Shown: positions 6,312 through 60,545 of the stretch, piece after piece
Position numbering within the stretch: the first letter of the stretch is position 1
Layout: the number at the start of each line of letters is the position of its first letter
Source: Ecdyonurus torrentis
Taxonomy: Eukaryota > Arthropoda > Insecta > Ephemeroptera > Heptageniidae
Length of the DNA stretch: 64,000 nt
Assembly (NCBI GenBank): GCA_949318235.1
Contig: OX439136.1
Coordinates: 15,347,890 to 15,411,889, forward strand
Direction: 5' to 3'
Position numbers and translations under genes: made by a program
Notes under the pieces: generated by a model
What the model was told of the DNA's origin: nothing
What the model saw: the letters and a program-made list of their open reading frames with translations, nothing else
Databases searched by the model: none

Positions 6312-6620
6312 TGGATGGGTGTATGCCTATGACGTCATATTAAATGCGCTTTGACGCCATACTGGAGTAATGAAAAGCATTGCTCAGCATAGGACAAACT
6401 TTTTTTTTGGGCTATTTTCTTTGGGAAATCGGTTAATTTTTTATTATTACTTTTCTCACATACTTAAGATACCAATTCAACCTAATAACAGCTTCAATGC
6501 TCTCAAAAATATTGCTTAGTATTTTTAAACTTTGAAAATGTGTTATTTCCCTATGCGGCCCATGTTATTGAGTTATCCAACATGTCTTCGACTTTAACAT
6601 TAATGCATAGACCCTATATA
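6312..6620 (+). mobile_element. Family 3 MITE
   Basis: About 309 bp. Left end ATGGGTGTATGCCTATGACG; right end, reversed, ATATAGGGTCTATGC. It carries the family words TGACGTCA, gacgccatactggag, cagcataggacaaac and, near the right end, cggcccatgtta. The same order occurs at 35441-35745, in reverse at 14439-14748, and as a left-end fragment at 21661-21740. Non-coding; transposase class unknown. Confidence 0.75.
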
Positions 6621-9403: not shown

Positions 9404-10660
9404 ATTACGCATATAGTGGGAAAATTAGTCGAAAGTATCACAAAATATTTTTACTTAATTGCATTATGCTACAGTTTTACTTATTTTCATATGCAAATTT
9501 TATCACGTATCTTCTATATCAAATAAATAATGCATGCATAATGAATAACAAACAATAAGCTTTTATTTGCTATTTGTTACAAATTGTTTTGTCATATTAT
9601 CTCTCTTCATATCTGCGTCTAAATCTCTCTATGAAATATATGATTTGTAAAACGTTTTCAATGTTATGAATGTTTTTCCCACTCAATATTTAAAAAAAAA
9701 AAAAAAAAAAAAAAAATCTCATAAGATTTTGTCATTTAGTCATTATAGTCTTCCTCATACATTTATAAATGGTACAGTACCACTTAAAAAAATGTTGTCA
9801 TAATTTTTATGTACTGTATTATTGTACAATGAAACATTACCTTTTGAAGTACTTTAATTACTTAAATTACTGTAACTTATAGTAATTTAAAAACCATGCA
9901 ATATAGTATAACTTTTTAAAAGGCTCTCTTAATAAAATTCACAATTTTACACATGATTGTGCTCTAATCACTAATGTACCATTGGAAAACTTGCTGAGAA
10001 AAACATGTGCTAAAATTAAATGCTACGAAAATCTAGTATCACAATCATATCTATGTATATTATTCATGATTGTGCATAATTATATTACCATTTAATTTTA
10101 GAGCCATAAATATTCAATATTATTTTTATGAGAAAAATATGAACTTAATTTGAATGGTATAAAAATATTTTATCATAAATTTATCATTTAGAGTAATAAA
10201 GCATAAAATTTTAATTATTAATTTCACAAACCTCAGCTTAGCTCAGTTACGGATTATACTTTAGGGTCTAAATGATATGAAAGGATATTATATCACTGCA
10301 AAAATATTTCATAATCTATACTATCAGTTCTTAGAAATCTTATTACTCTTTATATAAACGTCTTGAAATTGTTGCAATAATAAAAAAAATTGCACTTTAT
10401 CAATATTTTGATCCCAACACTCAAATTTGGAACAGTATACTGACTAAATTCATATTTTGTTTGAGTTTGTCGTTCGATACATAGATAAAAACTGTTAAAT
10501 TATTTTTAATTATACTTGTATATTAGTGTAAATAATGACTAGACCAAAGCTTGTTGTGATAATATTTGTTATTATTACGAACTGCCTATATAGGTAAACA
10601 AAGTTCCCTCTATTTCTTTTATAAGATCCATTGGTATCGGTACAACTGCGTAAAAGTATC
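8291..10660. other. AT-rich sequence with long A runs, no gene seen
   Basis: Contains A homopolymers at about 9046-9074, 9363-9400 and 9691-9716 and a small hairpin at 8655-8670 (GGCTCC arms, AGCA loop). Nothing resembling an exon or RNA gene was found. Confidence 0.5.
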
Positions 10661-10661
10661 C

Positions 10662-10964
10662 TTAAAGCCATATACCACATAAGACAATATGTGCTTTTTA
10701 ATGAATAAACACAAAATGGGATCTTCAAAAATGTTGACAATTTTTACCAGAATGCAGCCCCACGAGAGAACGCAAAAAAACTGTAAAGTATGCAATTTCC
10801 GTGACTATTCATGTTTATGACGTCAGAAACATGCATATAAATCGAAATTTCTGATCTCTGCTACAGTTGGGTTTTGAGACAAACTAAAGTTATTTATATA
10901 AGTCATATCAACTGTTTTGTGATACGTATAAATGCTTATGTTTTTCTCTGGTCTATTCCTTTAA
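10662..10964 (+). mobile_element. Family 4 MITE (TTAA-bounded, CRE core)
   Basis: 303 bp between TTAA at 10662 and TTAA at 10961. Ends are TTAAAGCCATATACCACA and, reversed from the right, TTAAAGGAATAGACCAGA. The interior aligns throughout with 33263-33608 and 56051-56395. A 24 bp palindrome at 10810-10833 centres on TGACGTCA with CATGTTT / AAACATG arms. This copy has internal deletions relative to the 345 bp copies. The TTAA boundaries suggest a piggyBac-type target, by inference. Confidence 0.8.
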
Positions 10965-11332
10965 AATGCAATCATATTATTGTATTTTATTTTTGGCAGA
11001 TACACTATTACATTGTCGTGTTAAACGTAAATAAAGTTTACTATGAAAGTACAGTACATGCATGTCCTTGCAGGTAACATCAATATCAAGTGTAACATAC
11101 GTACATTTATATTTTAATATCATTTTCCCATGACTTTGAAAAGTGCTAATGATATGGGTGTGTACGGGTGAGTACTATTAAAAAAAAAAAAAAAATTAAA
11201 AGTGTGAGATACAAAACTTTACTCCATATAATCTTAAGTTTTTTTTTTTATATATAATATAAAGAGTATGTGAATCTTATACTGTGGTGGTGTGTTTTAA
11301 ACTCTAACTTTAGATCTGAAGTCATATAGGTA

Positions 11333-13707: not shown

Positions 13708-14438
13708 GAGTGATTTTGAAATTTGAAAAAGGGGGATGATAATTTGGTTTACAAATTGGGTAACAATTATACATAATGCATATTATGATTCACATTAATA
13801 ACTTTAAATTGAGTTGCAATATCATTGAAGACCTATTTCATATGATGAGTCAACAATAAAAATATTAAGCGCATGAAAATAACTTAAAAAAAATATTAAT
13901 AGTGGATGTCGATATAGCTTCTGTCTTAAAATAAATTTATTCATTGTAAGTTGTAAAAAATTTACACTGCGTAGAATAATAATAATAATAAAAAGTGAGA
14001 GAACACCATTACCGTTATTTTTATGTGAATATTTTTCACAATCTAAGTTTAGATTTTTGCATCATCATCATATGTAGTTTGTAACGAGAAATTAAAACTT
14101 TAATTATTTTAGGAAAGATCATGCCAAAATAAACGTTTTAAAATAGTCTCAATGATCTTTAAATGCGGAATAAGTTTTTGATAATTTAAAAAATGATAAA
14201 TTTTGTTTAAATTTTATGACAGTTGAAGTTGTTTTGATTGATTTTAAAATTTATCTTCTATTATGAACCTTTCCTTTATATATAATATGATTAATAGAAA
14301 AAGTTGTTATTTGCATCAGCACTGCTCTCTCTCTCTCTCTCTGTCTAGGATGACGTATTTGCCAACAGTGTTATTAGAGCAAAGAAGGGATAATTAATGA
14401 CATTGGTGGCCGATTGTGGTACTTGGAGACTCAGTTAT

Positions 14439-14748
14439 ATATAGGGTGTACGTACATTCATGTTAAAGTCAACGCCATGTTGGTTCACTCAATAACATGG
14501 CCACCATAGGAAAATGACTCATCTTACCAGTTTAAAAACACGAAGAAATATTGTTGAGAGCATTGAAGCTACGTTAAATTAGTATCTCAAGTACATGTAT
14601 GTGAGAAAAATAATAATAACACTAAATTAACTGATTTCCCAAAGAAAATAGCCATAAACAAAGTTTGTCCTATCCTGAGTAATGTTATTCATTACTCCAG
14701 TATAGCATCCAAGTGCATTAATTATTACGTCATGCGCATACACCATAT
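14439..14748 (-). mobile_element. Family 3 MITE, inverted copy
   Basis: Starts with TATAGGGTGTACG and ends with gcgcatacaccatat. Reversed, it reads gtatgcgcatgacg, then actggagtaatgaataacat, tcaggataggacaaac and tggccatgttattgag, in the same order as 6312-6620. The open frame at 14748-14936 begins at its edge and is not credible as a gene. Confidence 0.75.
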
Positions 14749-21660: not shown

Positions 21661-21740
21661 TATAGGGTGTATGCTTATGACGTCATACTGAATGTTCTTC
21701 GACGCCATACTGGAGCTAAGAATAATATTGCTTACGATAT
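21661..21740 (+). mobile_element. Family 3 MITE, left-end fragment
   Basis: TATAGGGTGTATGC, then TGACGTCA and gacgccatactggag, in the same order as 6312-6620. The match fades after about 80 bp, so it is a truncated copy. Confidence 0.65.
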
Positions 21741-22239: not shown

Positions 22240-24782
22240 CTAGTTGATTGAAAAAACACGATTTTGTTCTGTCATTTCAGTAACACTTTAATAAAACACG
22301 CAAAATGAAATACAAGTTATACAAACCACACACAATTCACATATTAAGTATATTGTGTGTAAATAAAAATGTTGTTTACAAGACTATAGTATAGCTACTG
22401 TATTACATTCTATAATACATTGTGAAACCTTACAAATCTATAATTGGTTCTTTCTATATGGATAGATGTATAGTCAAAAATATATGTACTACTGTACGCA
22501 AATTTTTAGTTTTCTGCGGTTTATTGATGAACTTTATATTGAATTATTTTACATTGAAAATGAAGTTTAAAAAATGCAGTTTACATTGAAATTTTTAAAA
22601 AAAAAAACTTAATAAAATTCCCTAGGTGTACAAGATTTGTTTGAATGGCGTGGGGGAGGCAGAGATATCAAATAAAAATCTTGCTACATAACTTAAAAAT
22701 TCAAGACCCACACGTAAAAAGAGAATAATTCTGGTCTTGCAGTTATGCTGTACGGCAAAGTTACTCTTCAGGCAGGAGTAAAGAAATAATACTCCGCTGC
22801 TTTTTTTTTTCAACCATTGCCAACAACAAAAAATGGCGTGGAAGCGCATAACTATGTTGCATAACAGAATTTGTTGGTTTATTTCCTTTTTTTCTTTTCA
22901 TATTAGTCCCCATTTTAATTGTAATTATTTATGTGACAGTCACTGACTCTAAAAAGTTAAGCTTGTAGGTGACACCAACATTTTAATGAACTTTTTATTT
23001 ATTATTATTATTTTACTAGACTTTAGTATAGTTTACAGTAAAATCACATCACGTAATTCACTTCACACTGTAATACACTGTATACAATACATACTGTAAT
23101 ATGTTACACTATTCATCTCGTCAATTTTTGAAACTTTAAACTGAAAAATATAACTTCAATAAAATATTTAAATATATTTACAGTTCAATAACCGCTATGG
23201 AAAGTAAAGCTAAAGACAGCTCCCCTTAAATTATACTTAAAAAAAAAAAAAAAAAAAAAAAAAACTGAACTTGATTACGTAACTAAAAGCAATAATTTCA
23301 TCATAGCTGTCAAAAGAACTAAATCAAACAACATTACTTCAAAAATCAATAATATAAATGAATGACACGACTAATTTATTATATTAATAATTCACAACTT
23401 TACTGATGTAAACGCTTTGACATCTATAAACTGTGTGATAATATGAATATATTATAAAGATAAAGTAAACATGCCTTGAAAAATAAAAGGGTAGTAAGTT
23501 ACGTAGATAGAGCTGTTATTGGAGTGGTGTTTGCTTTCTCTCTCACTCTCTGTACCGCACAATGATCGATACGAAAACACTAGACGTTGTAAATGTATGA
23601 CTGTACCGAGTTCACATACCTCGCTTTGCTAAACACCCACGCCGTACAAACATGGACCTTTCTACTGTCTATACACGTGTTAAGAAAATATCTACCATGT
23701 CATAGAATAATAAAATGTCGTATAATTGTGTCGTATGAACTGAAAACAACGTCAAAGTAAGTATTTTCTTGTACTATATAATTTCTAATTTTTTTTTTTT
23801 TTTTTTATATGGAACAATAACCTAAGCTGTCATACTTAATGTGTATACGATTGTAAGATATAGAAGAAATCAATGGAAGAGTTTTGTGGTAGTGAAAATC
23901 TTTTAATATACGACACTTAAATATAATTTGAGTAACACTGCTGGAAAAACTGGTATACGGTGTGCAATTTTAAATTTAGAGGCTGTGAGTTCTGTTTGCC
24001 GAATTCATGGTTGCAATATTATACGATTCGTAGTATATTTTACTTACGTTTTTATTTTCTTTGTTTTTATGTTTTTATGCGGAATTAAGGCATACTTGTG
24101 TAAATAAGCATCGCAGACTCAATAGTATTTACTATAGATCTATAGTTATACGAGTCAATGAAAAACTGGTGAATAAACTTACAAATTAAATATATATTTT
24201 TCCTAGTGATATTTTGAGAATAAAATAGCTTCAAACGTACAACAATTTTAGAGGTCAGTAGGGTCACCACTATCATGCAAAATTATTAATCACGAATTTT
24301 TCATATTGTACTTATATAAATCTTCATGCTGATTTCAATAATTTTTCCTCTTTTCCTTTATATCGTAAACGCTATCGGATCCTGATTTTTTTTTATTTTT
24401 ATGATAGATAGTTATAACATAGGGAGGGGATAAAATTGTGAAACTTTTAGTGTTACAGTATCCTTCTGACTACAACCCTTAACTAAATATGAATTTTCTA
24501 GCTCAGCAGTAATTGTGACGCAATTCAAGCACATCATTGAATAGACTAAATCAATAATATAATCCTTGAACTAAAATTATGACGCATATTTTATTGAAAG
24601 TACTTTTTTGACAGTTATATCAACTTAATCTTAATATTATAAAATAAATTCCATTTGTTTATTATTAAAAAAAGTCTTTTTTTTTACACAAAATAATAAC
24701 AAATTTTAGTTCCAAGCATCTATTTTTTCTTTCCTATATAAAATTTACTTCCGTGCTATATTTAGAACGTTTTACGTTCAAA
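22236..24782. other. AT-rich sequence left of the GC-rich block, no gene seen
   Basis: Single-copy-looking AT-rich sequence with A runs (for example about 23239-23264). The last 150 bp before the block remain AT-rich up to about 24780, so the compositional change is abrupt. Confidence 0.5.
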
Positions 24783-24793
24783 TTGGCCGAGAA

Positions 24794-24849
24794 AAAGGGG
24801 CGCCGCAGGCGCCCCCCCCCTAAAGGGGGTGGCGCTGCGGCGCCCCTTT
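24794..24849. repeat. Nested GC hairpins at the start of unit 1
   Basis: Outer arms AAAGGGGCGCCGCAGGCGCC and GGCGCTGCGGCGCCCCTTT are near-complementary and enclose an inner CCCCC-TAAA-GGGGG stem. The left arm also folds on itself as GGGGCGCC-GCA-GGCGCCCC. The layout recalls the branched terminal hairpins of some single-stranded DNA viruses, but that is only a structural analogy. Confidence 0.85.
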
Positions 24850-24912
24850 GATTGCCACTAGAGTGCTATAAGTAGAGCGCGGGGGGGGCAAAAATACGAA
24901 AACGCAAGTTTG

Positions 24913-24947
24913 GCGGGGCGCCGACGCCGCAGGCGTCGGCGCCCCGC
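24913..24947. repeat. Perfect 16 bp-stem hairpin, GCA triloop (unit 1)
   Basis: Arm GCGGGGCGCCGACGCC at 24913-24928, loop GCA at 24929-24931, exact complement at 24932-24947. The C-GCA-G apex matches the loop class of the other hairpins in the unit. In unit 2 the stem has one mismatch. Confidence 0.95.
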
Positions 24948-25004
24948 GCGGAAATTTTTTGGGCGCGAGCTCAAACTAAATGTCTGTCGTTTCGTGAAAA
25001 AAAA

Positions 25005-25050
25005 GCGCCGAAAAGGCGCGTACTTTCGGCGCCGCAAGGCGCCGAAAGTA
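25005..25050. repeat. Two adjacent hairpins: GCGCC stem and 13 bp stem with GCAA loop (unit 1)
   Basis: GCGCC-GAAAA-GGCGC at 25005-25019 is followed by arm TACTTTCGGCGCC (25021-25033), loop GCAA and the exact complement to 25050. GCAA is a GNRA tetraloop. The second stem has one mismatch in unit 2. Confidence 0.95.
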
Positions 25051-25300
25051 CAAAACCAAATGGTACAAAACGATTTTTTGAAATTTTTGACGCCACAGAA
25101 AGTTGTCTAGATTTTTGCGCACGGATTTCCCCCCCTGAAACCACCGAAAATCCGCGCGAAAAACCGAAAATTCGCCGAAACCGCGCGTTTTTTTCGGCGC
25201 ATTTGAAATTTTAAACTTTTTTTTTGAAATCATTCCCGGGGCGTCAAAATAGAGTTTCGGACTCAAAAAAAGTTTCGGACAAATTATTTTCGGCGCGGCG

Positions 25301-25425
25301 CCATTTTCGGTCCAGGTATACCCTGAACTGGAGCCCATTCGACCCTTAATAACTTTAGAACGGATAACGGCAGATATGACAAACCGGGTATAGGAAGACG
25401 TCTTTTGACGAGCTCTACCAGGATC
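25301..25425. other. Best-conserved block of unit 1
   Basis: Across about 120 bp, from ccattttcggtccagg to gagctctaccaggatccg, I count two substitutions against 29101-29225. The following 200 bp diverge more. It contains no open frame, and the CG-rich hairpin theme is absent here. It may be a functional core or a recently homogenised patch. Confidence 0.7.
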
Positions 25426-25639
25426 CGTTCGAAAATCCGAAAAAAATCCGGTTTTCGGAAAGTTATTTCGAAAAAACCGATTCCTTATGGGTTTTCTTAA
25501 CTAACGTTTTCCGGATTTGCGGAAAAACCGGTCCTGCGATTTTTGTGAAACTCTCAGGTTAAGGTTTTCTAACAAGGGCGGATTTTTTCCCGGATTCGGA
25601 TTTTCAAAAAAAATCCGAAATTTTCGACACTTCGTTACA

Positions 25640-25661
25640 TTTTCGGCGCTGGCGCCGAAAA
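25640..25661. repeat. 10 bp-stem hairpin TTTTCGGCGC (unit 1)
   Basis: TTTTCGGCGC-TG-GCGCCGAAAA, identical in unit 2 at 29440-29461. It marks the change from the CG-dense left part to a more A/T-rich segment. Confidence 0.9.
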
Positions 25662-25779
25662 TTTTGGCGCTACAAAAAAAAAAAAAAATTTAAATGTGCA
25701 AAATTAAATTCCCTACAAAATGTATATATTGGATTTTTGATTACGGTTCATAGTTAGCGCTCAAACGTATTACCAACTT

Positions 25780-26500
25780 TTTGTACGGAGGCCAAAATTG
25801 AAAAAAACAACTTTTTCTCGGCTTATGGGATTTAACATGGGAAAAAACATTTTTTTCGAAGAAAAAAATGCCGCACACCGTTTCGGGTCGATTTTTACCC
25901 GAACTAAACGAATCCGAAGCCAGATTGTCAAAAAAGTCAAAATTCGAAAAGTTATTCAAATTTGAAATTTTTTTGAAAATCTCAAAAGTCGGATTAAGTT
26001 TTAAAACTCAAAAAAAAAACCGAAAAAATTCATTTTGAGTTGAGAATTAGTTATAAAATTTTGTTTTGCGTCGAAAATGTGGTATGAAGTTTTTCGCTCC
26101 GACGCTTAGTTACGGAGATAAATCGATTTTACGGAGGCAATGAAAAGTGAAAAATTTATTTTTTCTCAAAAAAAATGATATTTTTTTATAACTTTTAAAC
26201 CAATAGAGATAGAGCTTAATTTTAACATTTGCCTTATGGGGACCTCCGGTCCCTATAAGGTCTCCCAAATGAACTTTTTCCGTAAAACCGAATGGCGCAA
26301 ACGGCTCATTCCTACCTCCCATAGGAAAAAAGTTACGGAGGGGGTGAAATTACGGAATTTGCGGAGCCGGGCTTACGGAGGCGGACTTTTTGGAATGTAC
26401 AAGTAACACACATGGTCTGGTCGGAAATTTTATGCCAATTCGAATGGTGTCCGTAAAATTTCCGTAACTCCTATAGTTACGGAGAAATTTACGTTTTGGT
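25780..26500. other. TTACGGAG-box region of unit 1
   Basis: TTACGGAG or close variants recur near 26109, 26132, 26334, 26371 and 26475, with TACGGAGG near 25784. One pair faces inward as TCCGTAACT / AGTTACGGA (26461-26483), a 9 bp stem. A 13 bp stem with one mismatch, CCTTATGGGGACC with a TCC loop, lies at 26232-26260. Role unknown; the same arrangement is in unit 2. Confidence 0.75.
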
Positions 26501-26727
26501 GTAGGAAAACGTGATTTTTTCGTGTCTAACACACAATACATATAAAAACCAATGCTAACGTATGTTTGACACAGTTTTCGGGCTTTTTAAGGAATTCTCG
26601 ATGCTTACTCGCGCTTTTCGATTTACTCCGACATTCTTACATAGATATGGGACTATTTCAAAGAAAGTGGCCCCATTTGGAATACGACCCAAAAAATGGT
26701 GCCCATTTACTTATATAGCTTGACATC

Positions 26728-26740
26728 GCGGCGAAGCCGC
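26728..26740. repeat. GCGGC-GAA-GCCGC hairpin (unit 1)
   Basis: Perfect 5 bp stem with GAA triloop, conserved in unit 2 at 30530-30542. Confidence 0.9.
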
Positions 26741-26800
26741 ACAATTTTAAAGAAATCTTTTTTACTAACTCACACCAACTTCTCAATTTGGCCCCGCAGG

Positions 26801-27305
26801 GCTGGGTGGTCAGTATATATATGTATACAGTGGTGTTTCATGAACTCACCGTCCCCATAGCCTCGCAGAGGTGCGTACCCCACGTTTTGCCTACACTCCC
26901 CCTCTACTCTTCAATTTTTGCCCCGCAGGGCCGGGTGTTCAGTATATAAAATATTTTAGTGGTGTTTCATGATAACACCGTCCCCATAGCCTCGCAGAGG
27001 TGCGTACCCCACGTTTTGCCAACACTCCCCCTCTACTCTTCAATTTTTGCCCCGCAGGGCCGGGTGATCAGTATATACAATATTTATGTGGTTTTCATGA
27101 TAACACCGTCCCCATAGCCTCGCAGAGGTGCGTACCCCACGTTTTGCCTACACTCCCCCTCTACTCTTCAATTTTTGCCCCGCAGGGCTGGGTGATCAGT
27201 ACAAACAATATTTTAGTGGTGTTTCATGACAACACCGGTTGCTATGCCTCGCAGAGGTGCGTACCCCACGTTTTGCCTACACTCCCCCTCTACTCTTCAA
27301 TTTTT
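26801..27305 (+). repeat. Four-copy 128-129 bp tandem array (unit 1)
   Basis: The word CCTCGCAGAGG starts at 26861, 26990, 27118 and 27247 (spacing 129, 128, 129). Each copy also has GCCCCGCAGGGC, ccctctactcttcaattttt and cgtaccccacgttttgcc. The first copy is about 10 bp shorter between its two hairpins. The fourth ends by exchanging the GCCCCGCAGGG hairpin for GCGAAGC. The copies run in register with unit 2 at a constant 3802 bp offset, so the array predates the duplication. Confidence 0.95.
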
Positions 27306-27329
27306 GCGAAGCACCGTTGTGTTCCAGAG

Positions 27330-27477
27330 TAACCTAAAAGTGCGCGAAGCGCAAAAAGTTTTCTTGTGCAAAGCAATATTGAGTTCTGAAGTAACACCCA
27401 AGTGCGCGAAGCGCAAAAAGTTTTCTTGTGCTAAGCAATATTAAGTTTTCAAGTAACACCCAAGTGCGCGAAGCGCA
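27330..27477 (+). repeat. 62 bp tandem array, three copies (unit 1)
   Basis: Starts at 27330, 27392 and 27454. Each has taac, then the hairpin GCGC-GAA-GCGC; the first two continue through aaaaagttttcttgtgc, a TGC-loop-GCA mini-hairpin and aagcaatatt. Unit 2 has two copies. Confidence 0.95.
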
Positions 27478-27500
27478 GAATCATGTTTTTATTATTTTAA

Positions 27501-27905
27501 CTCGCCGAACGAATTAACTGCCAATAAAAGTGTTACCGCTCGCCGATCTCGCACTCGCACGATCTCGCGAAGCGAGCATGTATATATACAGGTGATCGCT
27601 GGCCGATGGGTATAAAACCGAGCGAAGCGAGGTGTCACTACGAACATCGTGCTAAGCATTTTTGGGATTTGTAGTAACACCCAAGTGCGCGAAGCGCAAA
27701 ATAACACTTACACTACTTTAGCTCGCCGAAATAATTAACCGCCAATTAAAGTGTAACCGCTCGCCGATCTCGCACTCGCACGATCTCGCGAAGCGAGCAT
27801 GTATATATACAGGTGATCGCTGGCCGATGGGTATAAAACTGAGCGAAGCGATGTTACATTTTTAATCTTTGTAACATATGTTTGAGCACATCATGCTGCC
27901 GAGCG
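27501..27905 (+). repeat. 221 bp tandem repeat, two copies (unit 1)
   Basis: Copies start with ctcgccga at 27501 and 27722. Each contains ctcgcactcgcacgat, the perfect hairpin CTCGC-GAA-GCGAG (27564-27576 and 27785-27797), catgtatatatacaggtgat, gggtataaaa and gagcgaagcga. The first also carries a GCGC-GAA-GCGC hairpin at 27687-27697. Unit 2 has three copies. Confidence 0.95.
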
Positions 27906-28200
27906 AAGCGAGGTATCTTAATTTATTTAAATAAAGCATTATTGGGACATGGTTTAATGTTTTTGAATGCCAACTAAACTTTTACTTTTCCTTGCGTCGT
28001 GCCCCCTTTTTTTTAAATATAAAGCGTTCTATCAGAGTACGGAAATACTTTGCGGGGTGAAATAAGTTTTTTGAGCTTAACTAATATCATTTCATGCCCT
28101 AATAAAGTTTCCGTTCCTGATCGACTCAAACCTTTGCCAGTGACGCGTGTTGCCTTTTTTTATTTTATTTGCACACTAAAAACCTTTGCTATTGATCCGT
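27906..28200. other. Spacer in unit 1 between the 221 bp array and closing hairpins
   Basis: Less GC-rich stretch conserved with unit 2 (for example aatttatttaaataaagcat, gttctatcagagtacggaaa). No open frame or hairpin of note. Confidence 0.6.
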
Positions 28201-28234
28201 GCTCTTCTGATCCGCGGCCGGGCCTGTTCTCTCC

Positions 28235-28285
28235 CCGCCTACGGCGGATCCTCTCGCGATCCCCCGGGGCGGCTTTAGCCGCCCC
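28235..28285. repeat. Pair of GC hairpins near the end of unit 1
   Basis: CCGCC-TAC-GGCGG (28235-28247), then GGGGCGGC-TTTA-GCCGCCCC (28266-28285), separated by tcctctcgcgatccccc. Both are intact in unit 2. Confidence 0.95.
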
Positions 28286-28550
28286 CTGCGTCTCTTCCCA
28301 CCTAAACTTAAACCCTTCGACCTTCGTGCGTGACTTTTTAAGGGCACATTTTTTTTTCTACTTTTTTGAATGAAACATGAAATTTTGACTCATGACTGAC
28401 TTTTTTCACGATCTTAATTTTTTTCTCTTTCATTTTTTCACCAAAATTTTTCTAATTTTCAACCGTGCACTGCTACTGCGGATGGAAAAAAAAGTGTGAT
28501 GAAATAAAAATGAAAACGTTGATTGAGATGAAACAATGCACTGCGCTGCG

Positions 28551-28568
28551 CACCGCTTGGAAGCGGTG
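28551..28568. repeat. Closing hairpin of unit 1
   Basis: CACCGCTT-GG-AAGCGGTG, with GCGCAC and GTGCGC words around it. About 15 bp later unit 2 begins. The same hairpin closes unit 2 at 32514-32531, next to the return to AT-rich DNA. Confidence 0.9.
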
Positions 28569-28594
28569 GCGTGCGCTCCTAGTTGGCCAAGAAG

Positions 28595-28650
28595 AGGGGC
28601 GCCGCAGGCGCCCCCCCCCCCCTTAAGGGGGTGGCGCTTCGGCGCCCTTT
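28595..28650. repeat. Nested GC hairpins at the start of unit 2
   Basis: Same layout as 24794-24849: AGGGGCGCCGCAGGCGCC pairing imperfectly with GGCGCTTCGGCGCCCTTT around a C-run / G-run inner stem. The inner loop and C-run length differ from unit 1. Confidence 0.85.
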
Positions 28651-28713
28651 GATTGCCACGTGCGTGTCCTGAGTGACGAAAAAATGGGATGAAAATACAC
28701 ATTTCAAACTTAA

Positions 28714-28748
28714 GCGGGGCGCCAACGCCGCAGGCGTCGGCGCCCCGC
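28714..28748. repeat. 16 bp-stem hairpin with one mismatch (unit 2)
   Basis: Arm GCGGGGCGCCAACGCC, loop GCA. One A replaces the G of unit 1, giving an A-C mismatch while the loop is intact. Confidence 0.95.
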
Positions 28749-28821
28749 GCGGAAATTTTTGCCACGCGAGCTCAAACTAAATGTCTGTCGTTTCGTGAAA
28801 AAAAAGCGCCGAAAAGGCGCG

Positions 28822-28851
28822 TACTTTCGGAGCCGCAAGGCGCCGAAAGTA
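28822..28851. repeat. 13 bp-stem GCAA hairpin with one mismatch (unit 2)
   Basis: Arm TACTTTCGGAGCC; A replaces C of unit 1. Loop and right arm are unchanged. Confidence 0.95.
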
Positions 28852-29100
28852 CAAAACCAAATGGTACAAAACGATTTTTTGAAATTTTTGACGCCACGCA
28901 AAGTTGTCTAAATTTTTCGGCACGGATTTCCCCCCCAGAAACCGCCGAAAATCCGCGCGGAAAACCGAAAATTCGCCGAAACCGCGCGTTTTTTCCCGAT
29001 ATATTCGGATTTAAAATTTTTTTTTTGAAATCATTCCCGGGGCGTCAAAATAGAGTTTTGGACTCAAAAAAGTTTCGGACAACTTATTTTCGGCGCGGCG

Positions 29101-29225
29101 CCATTTTCGGTCCAGGTATACCCTGAACTGGAGCCCATTCGACCCTTAATAACTTTAGAACGGATAACGGCAGATATAACAAACCGGGTATACGAAGACG
29201 TCTTTTGACGAGCTCTACCAGGATC
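29101..29225. other. Best-conserved block of unit 2
   Basis: Counterpart of 25301-25425 with two substitutions in about 120 bp. Confidence 0.7.
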
Positions 29226-29439
29226 CGTTCGAAAATCCGGCGAAAATCCGGTTTTCAGGCAGTTATTTTGAAAAAACCGATTCCTTATGGGATTTATTAA
29301 CTAACGTTTTCCGGATTTGCGGAAAAACCGGTCCTGCGATTTTTGTGAAACTCTCAGGTTAAGGTTTTCTCACAACGGCGGATTTTTTTCCGGATTCGGT
29401 TTTTCAAAAAAAATCCGAAATTTTCGACACTTCATTACA

Positions 29440-30310
29440 TTTTCGGCGCTGGCGCCGAAAATTTTGACGCTACAAAAAAAATAAAAAAAGAAAAATGTGC
29501 CAAATTAAATTCCCTACAAAATGTATATATTGGATTTTTGATTACGGTTCATAGTTAGCGCTCAAACGTATTACCAACTTTTTGTACGGAGGCCAAAATT
29601 GAAAAAAAAAAACTTTTTCTCGGCTTATGGGATTTAACATGGAAAAAAATATTTTTTTCGAAGAAAAAAATGCTACACACCCTTTCGGGTCGATTTTTAC
29701 CTGATCTAAACGAATCCGAAGCTAGATTGCCGAAAAAATCAAAATTCAAAAAGTTATTCGAATTCGAAATTTTTTTGAAATTCTCAAAAAACGGATTAAG
29801 TTTAAAAAGTCAAAAAAAAATCCGAAAAATTTATTTTAGAGTTAAGAATTAGTTATAAAATTTTGTTTTGCGTCGAAAATGTGGTATGAAGTTTTTCGCT
29901 CCGACGCTTAGTTACGGAGATAAAACGATTTTACGGAGGCAATGAAAAGTGAAAAAATTATTTTTTCTCAAAAAAGTTGATATTTTTTAATAACTTTAAA
30001 GCCAGTAGAGATACGGCTTAATTTTAACATTTGCCTTATGGGGACCTCCGGTCCCTATAAGGTCTCCCAAGTGAACTTTTTCCGTAAAACCGAATGGCGC
30101 AAACGGCTCATTCCTACCACCCATAGGAAAAAAGTTACGGAGGGGGTGAAATTACGGAATTTGCGGAGCCGGGCTTACGGAGGCGGACTTTTCGGAATGT
30201 ACAAGTAACACACATGGTCTGGTTGGAAATTTTATGCCGATTCGAATGGTGTCCGTAAAATTTCCGTAACTTCTATAGTTACGGAGAAATTTACATTTTA
30301 GCGTAGGAAA
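29440..30310. other. TTTTCGGCGC hairpin and TTACGGAG-box region of unit 2
   Basis: Contains the hairpin at 29440-29461, TTACGGAG boxes in the same positions relative to unit 1, and the CCTTATGGGGACC stem at 30034-30062. Confidence 0.75.
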
Positions 30311-30529
30311 ACGTGGTTTTTTCGTGTCTAACACACAATACATATAAAAACCAATGCTAACGTATGTTTGACACAGTTTTCGGGCTTTTTTAGGAATTAT
30401 CGATGCTTACTCGCGCTTTTCGATTTACTCCGACATTCTTATATAGATATGGGACTATTTCATAGAAAGTGGCCCCATTTGGAATACGACCCAAAAAATG
30501 GTGCCCATTTACTTATATAGCTTGACATC

Positions 30530-30542
30530 GCGGCGAAGCCGC
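30530..30542. repeat. GCGGC-GAA-GCCGC hairpin (unit 2)
   Basis: Identical to 26728-26740. Confidence 0.9.
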
Positions 30543-30592
30543 ACTTTTTTAAAGAAATCTTTTTTACTAACTCACACCAACTTCTCAATTTG

Positions 30593-31107
30593 GCCCCGCA
30601 GGGCTGGGTGGTCAGTATATATATGGATACAGTGGTGTTACATGAACTCACCGTCCCCATAGCCTCGCAGAGGTGCGTACCCCACGTTTTGCCTACACTC
30701 CCCCTCTACTCTTCAATTTTTGCCCCGCAGGGCCGGGTGTTCAGTATATACAATATTTTAGTGGTGTTTCATGATAACACCGTCCCCAATGCCTCGCAGA
30801 GGTGCGTACCCCACGTTTTGCCTATACTCCCCCTCTACTCTTCAATTTTTGCCCCGCAGGGCCGGGTGATCAGTATATACAATATTTATGTGGTTTTCAT
30901 GATAACACCGTCCCAAATGCCTCGCAGAGGTGCGTACCCCACGTTTTGCATACACTCCCCCTCTACTCTTTAATTTTTGCCCCGCAGGGCTGGGTGATCA
31001 GTACAAACAATATTTTAGTGGTGTTTCATGACAACACCGGTTGCTATGCCTCGCAGAGGTGCGTACCCCACGCTTTGCCCACCCTCCCCCACCATCCTGC
31101 AATTTTT
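30593..31107 (+). repeat. Four-copy 128-129 bp tandem array (unit 2)
   Basis: CCTCGCAGAGG at 30663, 30792, 30920 and 31049, each exactly 3802 bp from its unit 1 partner. The pattern of 129/128/129 spacing is preserved. The fourth copy has accumulated changes at its right end (caccctcccccaccatcctg). Confidence 0.95.
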
Positions 31108-31131
31108 GCGAAGCACCGTCGTGTTCCAGAG

Positions 31132-31217
31132 TAACCTTAAAGTGCGCGAAGCGCAAAAAGTCTTCTTGTGCTAAGCAATATTGAGTTCTGAAGTAACACC
31201 CAAGTGCGCGAAGCGCA
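31132..31217 (+). repeat. 62 bp array, two copies (unit 2)
   Basis: Starts at 31132 and 31194, one copy fewer than unit 1. Confidence 0.95.
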
Positions 31218-31240
31218 GAATCATATTTCCATTATTTTAA

Positions 31241-31875
31241 CTCGCCGAACGAATTAACTGCCAATAAAAGTGTTACCGCTCGCCGATCTCGCACTCGCAC
31301 GATCTCGCGAAGCGAGCATGTATATATACAGGTGATCGCTGGCCGATGGGTATAAAACCGAGCGAAAGCGAGGTGTCATTTTTAACATCGTGCTAAGCAT
31401 TTTTGGGATTTGTAGTAACACTAAAGTGCGCGAAGCGCAGAATAACACTAACACTACTTTAGCTCGCCGAAAAAACTAACCGTCAATAAAAGTGTTACCG
31501 CTCGCCGATCTCGCACTCGCACGATCTCGCGAAGCGAGCATGTATATATACAGGTGATCGCTGGCCGATGGGTATAAAACCGAGCGAAGCGAGATTTCAC
31601 TTTCAACATCGTGCTTAGCTTTGTTCAGATTTGTAGTAACACCCAAGTGCGCGAAGCGCAAAATAACACTAACACTACTTTAGCTCGCCGAAATAACTAA
31701 CCGCCAATAAATGTGTTACCGCTCGCCGATCTCGCACTCGCACGATCTCGCGAAGCGAGCATGTATATATACAGGTGATCGCTGGCCGATGGGTATAAAA
31801 CCGAGCAAAGCGAGGTTACATTTTTAATCTTTTTAACCTATATTTGAGCACTTCATGCTTCCGAGCGAAGCGAGG
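31241..31875 (+). repeat. 221 bp array, three copies (unit 2)
   Basis: Starts at 31241, 31463 and 31684. All three keep the CTCGC-GAA-GCGAG hairpin. GCGC-GAA-GCGC follows in the first two (31428-31438 and 31649-31659). One copy has a one-base insertion in its gagcgaagcgag word (gagcgaaagcgag near 31370). Confidence 0.95.
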
Positions 31876-32198
31876 TATCTTAATTTATTTAAATAAAGCA
31901 TTATTGTAACATGATTTATTATTGTTGGATGCCAACTAAACTTTTACTTTTTTCTTGCGTCGTGCCCCTTTTTTTTTTTAAATATTAATCGTTCTATCAG
32001 AGTACGGAAATACTTTGCGGGGTGAAAAATAGTTTTTTGAGCTTAACTTATATCATTTCATGCCCTAATAAAGTTTACGTTCCTTATCGACTCTAACCTT
32101 TGCCAGTGACGCGTGTTGCCAATTTTTTTTATTTACACACTTAAAACCTTTGCTATTGAACCGTGCTCTTCTGATCTGCGGCCGGGCAAGTTCTCTCC
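31876..32198. other. Spacer in unit 2 before the closing hairpins
   Basis: Counterpart of 27906-28200; contains ataaagcattattgtaac and gttctatcagagtacggaaa. No gene seen. Confidence 0.6.
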
Positions 32199-32249
32199 CC
32201 GCCTACGGCGGATCCTCTCGCGATCCCCCGGGGCGGCTTTAGCCGCCCC
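32199..32249. repeat. Pair of GC hairpins near the end of unit 2
   Basis: CCGCC-TAC-GGCGG (32199-32211) and GGGGCGGC-TTTA-GCCGCCCC (32230-32249), both perfect as in unit 1. Confidence 0.95.
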
Positions 32250-32513
32250 CGGCGTCACTTCCCTACTAAACTTAAACCCTTCGACCTTCGTACGTGACTT
32301 TTTGAGGGCACTTTTATTTTTATTTTTTGAATGAAAAATGAACTTTTGACTCATGACTGACTTTTCTCACGATCTTATTTTTTTTTTCTGTTTCATTTTT
32401 TCACCAAAACTATTTTACTTTCATGCCATGCACTGCCACTGCGGATGAAAAAAAAAGTGTGATGAAATAAAAACGTCAACGTTGTTTGAGACGGAAAAAT
32501 GCACTGCCCTGCG

Positions 32514-32531
32514 CACCGCTTGGAAGCGGTG
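32514..32531. repeat. Closing hairpin of unit 2
   Basis: CACCGCTT-GG-AAGCGGTG; the block ends 15 bp later at cctagt. Confidence 0.9.
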
Positions 32532-32546
32532 GCGTGCGCTCCTAGT

Positions 32547-33262
32547 AATTATTATAAGTATTGGAAATTTTATCTTAAAAATTCTATAGTAAAAATCGAC
32601 TTTTAAATTTCAAAAAATATAGTAAATAATATATTACATCCGCCTAATACAAAGATCTACTTTTACTTCTAATAATACTTTTACTATGATATTTTGCAGT
32701 TAGAGTATCCTATTGCATGAATAAAATACTTTCTGTGCTAAAATGTAAGGTGTACACTGTATGTAAACCTTGGCTAAAATGTATGTATGTATAGTAAAGG
32801 ACTGCATTATATTACATGCGCTTATTTCCTATATACACTAAGAGGTTTACCACATGAACATGATACACATAATATAAATTTTCTAATTAAATGCAAGGAA
32901 GAGTAATGTATTATATAGAAGGCTCCTTTCTTTAATTTGCAATTTACATCGTTTTTACAGCTATAGCAATCAGTATTAAAAAAAAAAAAAAAATGTACTT
33001 TTTTTCTCCCTCATATAGCTTGTACTACGATGAACTCTGTATACAAGTTAAAGGGCATCACACAAGCAATACTTTAAATTATATAAATATTAAATTTTAG
33101 GACTTTATATACTTAATTTTAATATCAATAACAAATAATTTTCGTCTGTAATTTAATGGTATAGCCTACTCTGAAATTTGTATTAATGGTATATAACTGT
33201 AATACAATATATAAGCGTTGTTAAATTGAAACCAGATTTGATTACAATTGAAGATGGATATC
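32547..33262. other. AT-rich sequence right of the GC-rich block, no gene seen
   Basis: Composition returns to AT-rich at once. It begins with aattattataag; AATT is also the tetranucleotide at the outer left edge (24781-24784). Confidence 0.5.
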
Positions 33263-33608
33263 TTACAACCATAGACCACATAAAACAACACGTGCTTTTT
33301 AATAAATAAACACGAAATGGGATCTTCAAAACTGATGACAATTTTTAGCAGAATGTTAATGTAGCCCCACGAGAGAGCGTGAAAATACTGTAAATTATGC
33401 AATTTGGGTGAAAATTCATGTTCATGACGTCAAAAACATGCAAAAATTAGTAAGAAAAAGTTGTGCGGGTTGCATAAATCGAAATTTCTGATCACTGCTA
33501 CGGGGCTACTGTTGGGTTTTGAGACAAACTAATGTTATTTATGTAAATCCCAGTAAGTTTTTGTGTGATATAAATGCTTATGTTTTTCTCTATGGTCTAT
33601 TCCTTTAA
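33263..33608 (+). mobile_element. Family 4 MITE
   Basis: 346 bp. Left end TTACAACCATAGACCACA (TTAA has become TTAC); right end reversed TTAAAGGAATAGACCATAG. Aligns with 56051-56395 along its length, including gagagagcgtgaaaatact, the TGACGTCA-centred palindrome (33417-33440) and ctgctacggggctactgttg. Confidence 0.85.
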
Positions 33609-33971
33609 ATCTTCCGCATCGTCTCCTTATATAAGATGAAAATTCAATAAAACATCACAACAATTTTGATGTCATTGGCAATGTCAGACCAATGTCATAC
33701 AAACTGCAAGCTAATATGTCATCTTTTTTTGTCCAAGTGTGCAAGAGATGTAAGGCCTTCATATAAGTGCATGTATACGTCACTATCATTTTAAATTCTC
33801 TTTGTTTGCAACTTCTCACACAATTTTATTAATTTCTTTGAGGTATATTTACACTACAGTGCTATTATAGCCTTTATCCATGGTCAAGAAATTTAAACTT
33901 CTGAAGTATTTATATATACGCATTTAAATGTTAATTGTTATATTATACTCGCCGTGTACTTATTATTGTGA

Positions 33972-35440: not shown

Positions 35441-35745
35441 TTTATATGTGCATGACGTCATACACATGACGCTTCGACGCCATACTGGAGCAATGAATAA
35501 CATTGATCAGCATAGGACAAACGTGGTTTTTGACTATTTTCTTTGAAAAATTTGTTGATATTTTGTTGTGTGTTATTCTATTATTATTATTATTTTTCTC
35601 GCATACGGTACTTAAAAAATTATTTCAATCTGTTAACAGCCAGCATTACCCTTAAAATTGTGATATTTTTAAATTGGCAAAATGTGTTATAATTCCATAC
35701 CGGCCCATGTTATGTTAAATAATGACACTATATATGAATGCATCT
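35441..35745 (+). mobile_element. Family 3 MITE
   Basis: Contains TGACGTCA, cgacgccatactggag, cagcataggacaaac, tattttctttg and cggcccatgtta in the same order as 6312-6620. Terminal repeats are more diverged, so edges are approximate. Confidence 0.7.
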
Positions 35746-51930: not shown

Positions 51931-52264
51931 TTAAAGGCATAGACAACATGAAAACATTTGCAGTTACATCACAAAACAATTGATGGCACTGACATAAATA
52001 ACATTAATTGGTCTCAACTGTATCGCCGTAGCAGTGATCAGAAAATTTCGATTTATGCAACCCGCACAACATTTTCATACTTTAGTTTTCTGACGTTATT
52101 ATAAACAGAAATATTCACGCAAATTGCATACTTTACATATTTTGTCACACTCTCTCGTGGGGCCACATTAACATTCTGGTAAAAATTGTCTTCAGTTTTG
52201 TGGATCCCATTTTGTGTTTAATGATTAAAAAGAACATGTTGTTTCATGTTTTCTATGCCTTTAA
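51931..52264 (-). mobile_element. Family 4 MITE, inverted, diverged copy
   Basis: 334 bp between TTAA at 51931 and TTAA at 52261. Ends TTAAAGGCATAGACAACATG and, reversed from the right, TTTAAAGGCATAGAAAAC. The reversed interior contains gtggggccacattaacat, gcaacccgcacaacattttc and taacattaattggtctcaac, matching the other copies. The central TGACGTCA has decayed here. Confidence 0.8.
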
Positions 52265-55050: not shown

Positions 55051-56050
55051 AATAACATTTAAGGCCATGAGTTTTAAAATTATAATTATCATGAGTCTCA
55101 GTGCTCAGTGTTTATTAACATTAAATATATCTTACTGATTGACTATATCTTATATATCTATATCTTATTGATTGCAATGATAGCATATATTTCATTATAT
55201 ACCCTATACGTACAATACATAAAGTACAATACATACAACACATTATATACACATATGTGTATATGTGTATTGTGTATTGTGTATGTATACAATAAAACAA
55301 CTCTTTAAAAATGTAAAAATTGTAGAGGAACACCGCATGCAAAAAGTTGAAATACAAAATTTTGACATTTTAATCTAACATTAATTCTAATAATATTTTT
55401 TCAGAGTAAGAAATTTCTTAATTTATACTTCATTGTAGAATACAACATAAATGCTTCTAAATTATAATTGCATGAATAATAATGTTGGGATATGCTATGT
55501 AACATAGTCGCTATCCAATGTAAGATAAATTATGTTCTGAATAAATGTTACTGAAATTTAAGTTCGTAGGTGACCGACTGTACGTCAAGCATGTAAAAAC
55601 ACGATCAAATATTTAAATTATTCTACTTTAAAGATTGCATGCAAATGTGGAAATTCAAATTTTATCTGCAATTTTTAGTTTTAGCCAAATTAAAAACTTT
55701 TTAAAATTAAAATTATTATTTAAACTTTTTTTCGAAACAATAAAACATTTTTAAATTTACTTGATTTCAATTGAAAATTATATTATAGTATTTGTTTTGT
55801 TGGTAATAAAGATTGTACAAAGTATTATTGTGAAAATATAGTCCCTCTTTTATTGATTTCCGGTCCAAGTCGGTCATTCTCTTCGTTAACCAGTATATAA
55901 TTATTGCGTAATTATTTTTGTCAGTACTTATACCTGCTGATGGTCACGAATACTAATAAATGTATCATAAATATAGTTGTTACCATTGCCGTACTTTCAA
56001 ATGACATCATAAAGTGGTCAACTTTAGAGCCTTCTATTTAATTACAATCC
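55051..56050. other. AT-rich sequence, no gene seen
   Basis: A degenerate TATG/TACA-rich palindromic stretch at about 55190-55290 gives overlapping open frames on both strands; these are artefacts. Confidence 0.45.
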
Positions 56051-56395
56051 TTAAAGCCATAGACCACATAAAACAGCATGTGCTTTTTAATGAATAAACA
56101 CGAAATGTGATCTTCAAAACTGATGACAATTTTTACCAGAATGTTAATGTAGCCCCACAAGGGAGAGTAAAATAACTGTAAAGTATGCAATTTGCGTGAA
56201 TATTCATGTTTATGACGTCAGAAACATGAAAAAATTAGTATGAAAATGTTGTGCGGGTTGCATAAATTGCATTTTATTTAATCACTGCTACGGGGCTACT
56301 GTTGGGTTTTGCGACAAACTAATGTTATTTATGTAAATCCCATCAAGTGTTTTGTGATGTAAATGATAACGTTTTTCTCTGGTCTATTCCTTTAA
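56051..56395 (+). mobile_element. Family 4 MITE, best-preserved copy
   Basis: 345 bp between TTAA at 56051 and TTAA at 56392. Ends TTAAAGCCATAGACCACA and, reversed, TTAAAGGAATAGACCAGAG. Contains tgtagccccacaagggagag, the 24 bp TGACGTCA-centred palindrome at 56205-56228, gtgcgggttgcataaatt and ctacggggctactgttggg. No open frame. Confidence 0.85.
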
Positions 56396-56553
56396 ACAAA
56401 AACAATATTCTCCCGTATCTCTATAATATTTAGATATCATTAATATTCATACCATTATAAACCTAAAGTGAACAGCAAAATTAGAGGTCAACTCACAATG
56501 GAGATACAGACTTACAAAGTAAAGTAAATTTATTTTAGACATGTAGCAATAAT

Positions 56554-60214: not shown

Positions 60215-60545
60215 TTAAAGGCGTAGAACACCTTGAACAAAAAACATGTCTAATATCCTAACATACCTAAATATCAAAGCTGATTTGGCCGGAGTCATTG
60301 ATTTCTAATTTATTTTCCATTCACAAAATAACAGCTGCGGGTTTGTGACATCACAGCTTGCATGTTTCCGCGCGCGTGGACTAGTGAGCTGTGACGTCAC
60401 AAACCCGCAGCTGCCATTTTGTAAATGAAAAAAAAAAAAAAAAAAAGAAAAAAAGAAATCAATGACTCCGGCCAAATTAACGTTGATATTTAGGAATGTT
60501 AGGATATTAGGCAAGTTTTTTGTTCAAGGTGTTCTACGTCTTTAA
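60215..60545. mobile_element. Full-length fold-back MITE, TTAA-bounded
   Basis: 331 bp that is an imperfect palindrome over nearly its whole length. Left end TTAAAGGCGTAGAACACC, right end reversed TTAAAGACGTAGAACACC, continuing through ttgaacaaaaaac, taatatcctaacat, gccggagtcattgatttc and tgtgacatcacagct / agctgtgacgtcacaaa at the centre. TTAA at both edges and the TTAAAGGCGTAGA start relate it to family 4 ends (TTAAAGGCATAGA). An A run in one arm breaks the symmetry. Confidence 0.85.

Follow-up and report, generated by a model that had tools for sequence, protein, structure and literature searches.

Two head-to-tail copies of a probable non-autonomous Helitron-type transposon in the mayfly Ecdyonurus torrentis

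Helitrons are transposons thought to copy via a single-stranded circle. According to the account of Helraiser, this element has a 19-bp palindrome 11 nt before its terminal CTAG, inserts at A|T targets and forms circles with head-to-tail joined ends (PMC4778049). The Helentrons, HINEs, DINE-1 and Helitron2 elements described from Drosophila, mite, oyster (Cg_HINE) and Fusarium (FoHeli) include non-autonomous forms with central tandem repeats and terminal hairpins (PMC4067079, PMC7492417, PMC5148889); in FoHeli1 and FoHeli2 the loops of the 5' hairpins are GAA, and FoHeli3-5 begin with TGCCT and end with CTCCTGT (PMC5148889). Here we describe a GC-rich block in a 64,000-nt stretch of the genome of the mayfly Ecdyonurus torrentis (503 Mb, 117 contigs), i.e., positions 15347890-15411889 of contig OX439136.1 (C20), hereafter the window. 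The block consists of two adjoining copies in direct orientation, copy A (3800 bp) and copy B (3963 bp), which very probably represent a non-autonomous rolling-circle transposon of Helitron type, present twice and head-to-tail. This reading is drawn from fixed termini at several loci, near-identical dispersed copies and a host T without target duplication of at least 2 bp, and further from a Helitron-like 3' end, an internally deleted derivative that has kept both termini and the presence in the genome of a Rep-helicase frame without interruptions.

The unit shares with canonical Helitron1 elements (Helraiser/Helibat1) the 3' palindrome ~10-11 nt before CTAG, the host T that follows and the lack of a longer target duplication (PMC4778049). 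Unlike these it begins with TTGGCC and not TC, has A, G or C as the left target base, carries a ~75-nt stem-loop as its 5' terminus and a body rich in C(GNA)G hairpins, and is non-coding. Because of the TTGGCC end, and because no asymmetric inverted repeats were found, it fits neither described Helitron subclass and is a variant with an unusual 5' end. In the literature searched, no description of a TTGGCC...CTAG family was recognised.

A dispersed family with fixed ends

Nine places in the genome were found with the 5' end as query and ten with the 3' end; the exact 3'-end pattern likewise had 10 genome matches, and its reversed control none. The family totals eight full-length copies at five loci (A and B on C20, three in a row on C12, two on C4, termed C4a and C4b, and one on C17) together with an 842-bp derivative on C15 and a broken old copy on C8. 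The initial annotation had called the unit isolated, which holds within the window and not for the genome, where further copies lie on C4 (two), C12 (three), C17, C15 and C8. All eight full-length copies start with TTGGCC and finish with CTAG, the same to the base, and TTGGCC is present in 9 of 9 copies having a 5' end (the full-length copies and C15). Five B-type copies (C20 B, both on C4, the third on C12 and that on C17) are 99.27-99.95% identical, and C20 B is separated from the first C4 copy by 2 mismatches and 1 gap column over almost 4 kb. Such similarity points to recent movement, and the family was probably active recently.

The C15 derivative combines a 5' end of 41 bp with an inverted 61-bp piece and with 774 bp that correspond to the final 792 of B, and it keeps the same ends as the full-length copies. 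This suggests that the 41-bp 5' end and the 774-bp 3' part may suffice in cis. The C8 copy (C8:4154436-4161148) has lost its 5' end and is interrupted by a nested 3366-bp element with long inverted ends. One C4 copy ends ~130 bp before a putative TMEM201-like exon with an Ima1_N domain (E 1.6e-9) and therefore probably sits in an intron.

The 3' end is made of the 18-nt palindrome CACCGCTTGGAAGCGGTG, 10 nt, CTAG and then the host T, and the final 37 nt are identical between A and B. Both copies thus have what is expected of a Helitron1 3' end, i.e., CTRR with a palindrome ~10-12 nt upstream. When the window was scanned for a GC-rich perfect palindrome followed by 3-15 nt and CTRRT, two matches were obtained, each exactly at a copy end, compared to a mean of 0.9 in shuffled windows and 0.2 in shuffled units. 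To the right of CTAG a host T was present in 7 of 7 cases in which the 3' end is an outer one; the 5' borders all read N|TT and the 3' borders |T. Target duplications of at least 2 bp were absent from all six loci with both ends, the flanks of which share at most the T. The C4b copy is inserted in a ~350-bp repeat whose family has further members in the window, and the joined flanks of this copy read TTG|TTTTGTGA, the same across the junction as one empty paralogue. The paralogues of this site have four T in three of four cases, as N|T insertion predicts, and five T in one. Since the flanks of all six loci were used, the absence of a duplication of this length does not depend on the C4b empty site alone.

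Some features of the ends weigh against a Helitron1-type assignment. The 5' end is TTGGCC where Helitron1 has TC, and the base to its left is A at three, G at two and C at one of 6 insertion sites. As T flanks both sides, TTGGCC...CTAG without duplication is indistinguishable from TGGCC...CTAG with a 1-bp T duplication. The left flank of C4b has, a few bases from the junction, 1 base more than three of the four diverged paralogues, and the C17 copy, inside the same ~350-bp family, occupies a site with 2 extra bases that is hence uninformative. It is conceivable, although rather unlikely, that the unit belongs to the Helentron/Helitron2 class of non-autonomous elements (HINE/DINE type) instead of being Helitron1-like: its central tandem repeats and 5'-terminal hairpin resemble HINE and FoHeli elements, its 5' end is not TC and a T is found at either side of it, insertion into TT being a mark of this class. 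However, asymmetric or subterminal inverted repeats, for which ~11-15 bp is the criterion, were not detected when the first 60 nt were compared with the last 300 nt (54 and 195 of 200 shuffles were as good for A and B, respectively), the 3' terminus CTAG is preceded, at a distance of 10 nt, by a palindrome, the T counts at the C4b-site paralogues agree with N|T in all but one, and the unit, unlike those elements, is GC-rich relative to its host.

The ~350-bp dispersed repeat has four members in the window (10658-10965, 33262-33609, 51931-52264 on the minus strand and 56050-56396), which are 71-89% alike and have short terminal inverted repeats, CATAGACCA.../...TGGTCTATG. A second dispersed family occupies 6318-6620, 14438-14744 (minus strand), 35452-35713 and, in part, 21665-21732. 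The motif TGACGTCA occurs 10 times in the window, where ~0.4 would be expected from base composition, with several occurrences inside the dispersed repeat families and one inside an imperfect inverted repeat of ~330 bp at 60215-60545 (78.6% self-complementary).

Organization and composition of the unit

The order of parts is alike in A and B: a terminal stem-loop, two strong GC-rich hairpins, a ~1.5 kb body that by eye is A/T- and CCGAAAA-rich, 129-bp repeats, 221-bp repeats and a 3' segment closing with the palindrome and CTAG. The features are as follows.

24783-28582, + strand: copy A, full-length element TTGGCC...CTAG, 3800 bp; preceded by host A at 24782
28583-32545, + strand: copy B, full-length element TTGGCC...CTAG, 3963 bp; followed by host T at 32546
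24784-24857, + strand: 5'-terminal long stem-loop of copy A (DNA fold -34.5 kcal/mol, z -6.9)
28584-28658, + strand: 5'-terminal long stem-loop of copy B (-26.3 kcal/mol, z -4.0)
24913-24947, + strand: 16-bp hairpin with C(GCA)G triloop, copy A
28714-28748, + strand: equivalent of this hairpin in copy B, with one uncompensated stem mismatch
25020-25051, + strand: 14-bp hairpin with GCAA loop, copy A; in copy B at 28821-28852 with one mismatch
26239-26253, - strand: hairpin GGGACC-TCC-GGTCCC, a C(GGA)G triloop on the minus strand; in copy B at 30041-30055
26783-27307, + strand: 129-bp tandem repeats x4.1 of copy A, with CCTC-GCA-GAGG hairpins
30585-31109, + strand: 129-bp tandem repeats x4.1 of copy B
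27452-27851, + strand: 221-bp tandem repeats x1.8 of copy A, with TGCGC-GAA-GCGCA and CTCGC-GAA-GCGAG mini-hairpins
31168-31827, + strand: 221-bp tandem repeats x3.0 of copy B, related to 270-bp repeats 3' of the Rep-helicase frame on C45
28551-28568, + strand: 3'-terminal palindrome CACCGCTTGGAAGCGGTG, copy A
28579-28582, + strand: CTAG terminus of copy A, with TTGGCC of copy B directly next (tandem junction)
32514-32531, + strand: 3'-terminal palindrome, copy B
32542-32545, + strand: CTAG terminus of copy B, with host T next

Folded as DNA, the 3' ends alone gave z -2.4 and -1.9 and the segment 28210-28300 gave z -1.8; the 221-bp repeat folded no better than shuffles (z -0.02).

Copies A and B are 92.85% identical, with 271 mismatches and 179 gap columns, and the single large insertion or deletion between them is 160 bp, the 221-bp repeats numbering 1.8 in A and 3.0 in B. 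Base 32546, the host T of the right flank, lies outside copy B. The GC content is 42.9% in A and 42.8% in B versus 26.6 and 25.4% in the flanks, and the observed/expected ratio of CpG is 1.45 and 1.49 versus 0.91 and 0.85; outside the unit the window has ~26% GC with long A, TC and AT runs. GC-rich perfect hairpins number 36 in the two-copy unit (4.6 per kb) versus 13 in 56.1 kb of flank (0.23 per kb), and dinucleotide shuffles of the unit (n=30) gave a mean of 11.7 and a maximum of 17. Substitutions between A and B fall evenly on the three positions modulo 3 (87/94/89), so that codon periodicity is absent, and no codon-level selection between the copies was seen. None of 10 window frames, 5 inside the unit and 5 outside, had a Pfam match above cut-off; 2 unit frames found no match among 5.8 billion proteins at an E limit of 0.1, nor did 1 frame outside the unit at an E limit of 0.001. 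Rfam gave nothing above cut-off on the window and ARAGORN no tRNAs; 3 weak Rfam matches in the unit (E 0.059-0.19, far under the cut-offs) are read as chance on hairpins. These results bear out the initial annotation as to the duplication, the order of parts, the edges, the lack of coding and of a gene-like frame common to the copies, and the composition, CpG and hairpin density unlike the rest of the window.

The same annotation had suggested a foreign or novel nature and possible capture of organellar, plasmid or viral DNA. Captured DNA of this kind, or a ribosomal spacer, that was later duplicated would agree with a GC and CpG content unlike the host, and a spacer might be suspected from the TATA-like motifs in the internal repeats. 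Nevertheless we give such an origin next to no weight. Copy A had no blastn match in phage and plasmid records, organelle collections not being among those searched, no Rfam family exceeded its cut-off, four exact patterns had 0 matches in viral contigs and one pattern had 0 in prokaryote genomes, and the same termini recur at five loci, the dispersed full-length copies defeating capture as a sole explanation. A looser 3'-end pattern met 5 loci in viral contigs, which were taken as chance. The unit thus does not look foreign and belongs to a dispersed mobile family, the Helitron-type ends of which are the same at five loci; by the same token the match to a known transposon that had been named as telling against novelty is largely there, as to kind and not as a named family, and 'undescribed' may still hold for the family itself.

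Head-to-tail arrays and the putative partner enzyme

Two of the five full-length loci are arrays: C20 (A then B) and C12 (two copies of a subfamily A' and then a B-type copy). The junction CTAG|TTGGCC is accordingly found three times in chromosomes, once on C20 and twice on C12, and resembles the head-to-tail junction of Helraiser circles (PMC4778049). As A, A' and B have diverged by 6.5-8%, the A|B and A'|B pairs can hardly stem from one circle; one element would have landed exactly at the border of another, and either order of insertion in the mixed arrays obeys the N|T rule. According to a review, the dimers formed by transposons in Drosophila are mainly put down to insertion-site preference (PMC12628747), and we infer a similar cause for the tandem arrangement seen here. 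Tandem Helitron arrays and Helitron-derived satellites also present rolling-circle transposon copies head-to-tail, but many of those described have several 5' ends and one 3' end, in contrast to the whole elements of different subfamilies, with both ends, found here (PMC12628747).

That the window locus is chimeric or collapsed through misassembly is hardly credible, because A and B are 7% diverged and unequal by one repeat unit and every border is a transposon terminus; furthermore, the arrangement of A'-type then B-type recurs on another contig. It is also improbable, if a little less so, that the 3.8-kb unit is a macrosatellite amplified by unequal exchange, with the dispersed copies spread via segmental duplication. 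The arrays of two units on C20 and three on C12, the 100% identity of the two C12 A' copies over 3745 bp and an apparent long array with related repeats on C26 would be in agreement with this. On the other hand a tandem satellite should mainly form arrays without fixed ends, and at three of the five full-length loci one complete unit stands alone, with exact termini and with flanks that differ between loci, the arrays begin and end in the same phase (TTGGCC/CTAG) and the A|B and A'|B neighbours belong to different subfamilies, 7-8% diverged. For a Helitron-type element the identical A'A' pair may reflect insertion of a circle dimer or a later duplication.

The mobilising enzyme would be a Rep-helicase that acts in trans. 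At the sensitivity used, two places in the genome were detected with a profile of the Helitron Rep domain. At C45:2257383-2264276 (minus strand) lies an uninterrupted frame of 2298 aa, mostly GC-richer than the host, with the domains Helitron_like_N (1.5e-53) and PIF1 (1e-43) and with what we take to be the HUH (HQKRGLPHAHIVI), Y-x3-Y and Walker A motifs. About 0.9 kb past it begins ~8.4 kb of GC-rich DNA with hairpin stems of up to 29 bp, which apparently closes with a hairpin and CTAG|T, an end read from this single copy. The 270-bp repeats in this tail are ~65-80% identical to the 221-bp repeat of the unit and on the same strand. The second locus, C10:45257513-45265403, holds a Helitron-like Rep-helicase split over several frames, and 20 kb around it gave no match to copy B better than E 0.005, the best lying around an 18-mer. 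The C45 lineage appears the likeliest source of the mobilising enzyme. Two findings speak against the pairing: TTGGCC was not found on the 5' side of the C45 gene, and relatives of the 221-bp repeat (mostly 73-82% identity) are also present on C11, C12, C17, C8, C26 and elsewhere on C45. Owing to these relatives the shared 221/270-bp repeat was dropped as proof of a partnership.

Other occurrences of these sequences were recorded. The 18-mer near the C10 Rep locus (GTTTCGTGAAAAAAAAGC-like) also precedes a hairpin in the unit; it is found exactly twice and partially at two more places. C26:2810287-3186044, of which 13.5 kb was sampled, has pieces of C45-type 270-bp repeats every ~5.4-7.5 kb in the apparent long array; the sample has a period of 5735-5736 bp and an ungapped identity at that period of 0.40, so that the units may differ over part of their length. 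Clusters of the 221/270-bp repeat with ~7-kb spacing at C45:2289232-2311881 and C11:38147660-38161510 are perhaps copies of Helitron tails.

C(GNA)G hairpins and a possible mechanism

Among triloop hairpins with stems of at least 5 bp, counted on either strand, C(GNA)G loops make up 11 of 11 in copy A and 12 of 13 in copy B, versus 0 of 5 in the flanks, and the expectation from shuffles is 0.05-0.06 per copy. These hairpins represent seven distinct stems; internal repeats inflate the hairpin counts and not the number of distinct stems. DNA mini-hairpins with GNA or GNNA loops, e.g., GCGAAGC, are reported to be unusually stable, melting at up to 78 C, and nuclease-resistant (PMC4686876). Hairpins are tied to HUH-type enzymes also in bacteria, in the REP palindromes with their RAYTs, and some REPs, e.g., of Citrobacter, can be read as GC-GNA-GC loops (PMC2817692; the triloop reading is ours). 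REPs are bacterial and ~20-35 nt long, and the likeness lies in the form of the hairpins and not in a sequence comparison.

Across the three subfamilies the hairpin columns appear to vary less than the rest of the alignment. With all 17 hairpins included, 14 of 285 columns are variable versus 365 of 3373 elsewhere (Fisher p 0.001), and with the 13 hairpins chosen as shared, a partly circular choice, 2 of 226 versus 377 of 3432; on account of poly-C gaps the count begins after column 80 of the alignment and so omits the 5' stem-loop. Random placement of blocks reached as few variable columns as the 17 hairpins in 175 of 5000 trials, and for this reason support for hairpin conservation is only moderate.

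The plus strand, which would be the strand peeled off during transposition, carries the loops of five of the seven C(GNA)G stems. The hairpins most likely have a role while the element is single-stranded. There are also points that do not favor such a role. With stems of at least 4 bp the share of C(GNA)G falls to 15 of 22 in A and 16 of 23 in B (0 of 37 in the flanks), the other triloops, 7 per copy, being at the level of shuffled sequence (6.5 and 7.2). No compensatory stem changes were seen, and the stem changes of copy B are uncompensated. The C15 derivative is without most body hairpins, which are therefore not strictly required, and C(GNA)G accounts for only 5 of the 15 triloops found in the tail of C45.

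It is tempting to speculate on how the unit would move. A Rep-helicase acting in trans would nick the 5' end, and the strand ending in CTAG would be peeled off until the 3' palindrome stops the process. The single-stranded circle would then close and be joined to a target at N|T. At this single-stranded stage the C(GNA)G mini-hairpins may act by giving stability, by stopping the helicase or by serving as a start for the second strand. The border of a resident element would be a favored target, giving rise to head-to-tail arrays of different subfamilies. Taken together, the proposal that the body is selected as single-stranded DNA through its C(GNA)G loops and that resident borders are preferred targets leading to mixed-subfamily arrays is offered tentatively, and we hold it to be possible rather than probable. 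Were it true, the combination of TTGGCC and a 5' stem-loop with a CTAG 3' end would constitute a third Helitron terminal type.

Helitrons are often known just from old remains. With the near-identical copies and the uninterrupted Rep-helicase frame of E. torrentis, the donor, the partner and the intermediate become accessible to testing. Through the C(GNA)G pattern, sequence can be related in a checkable way to the stage at which a moving Helitron is single-stranded, and the arrays of mixed subfamilies open a route to study the change from transposon to satellite.

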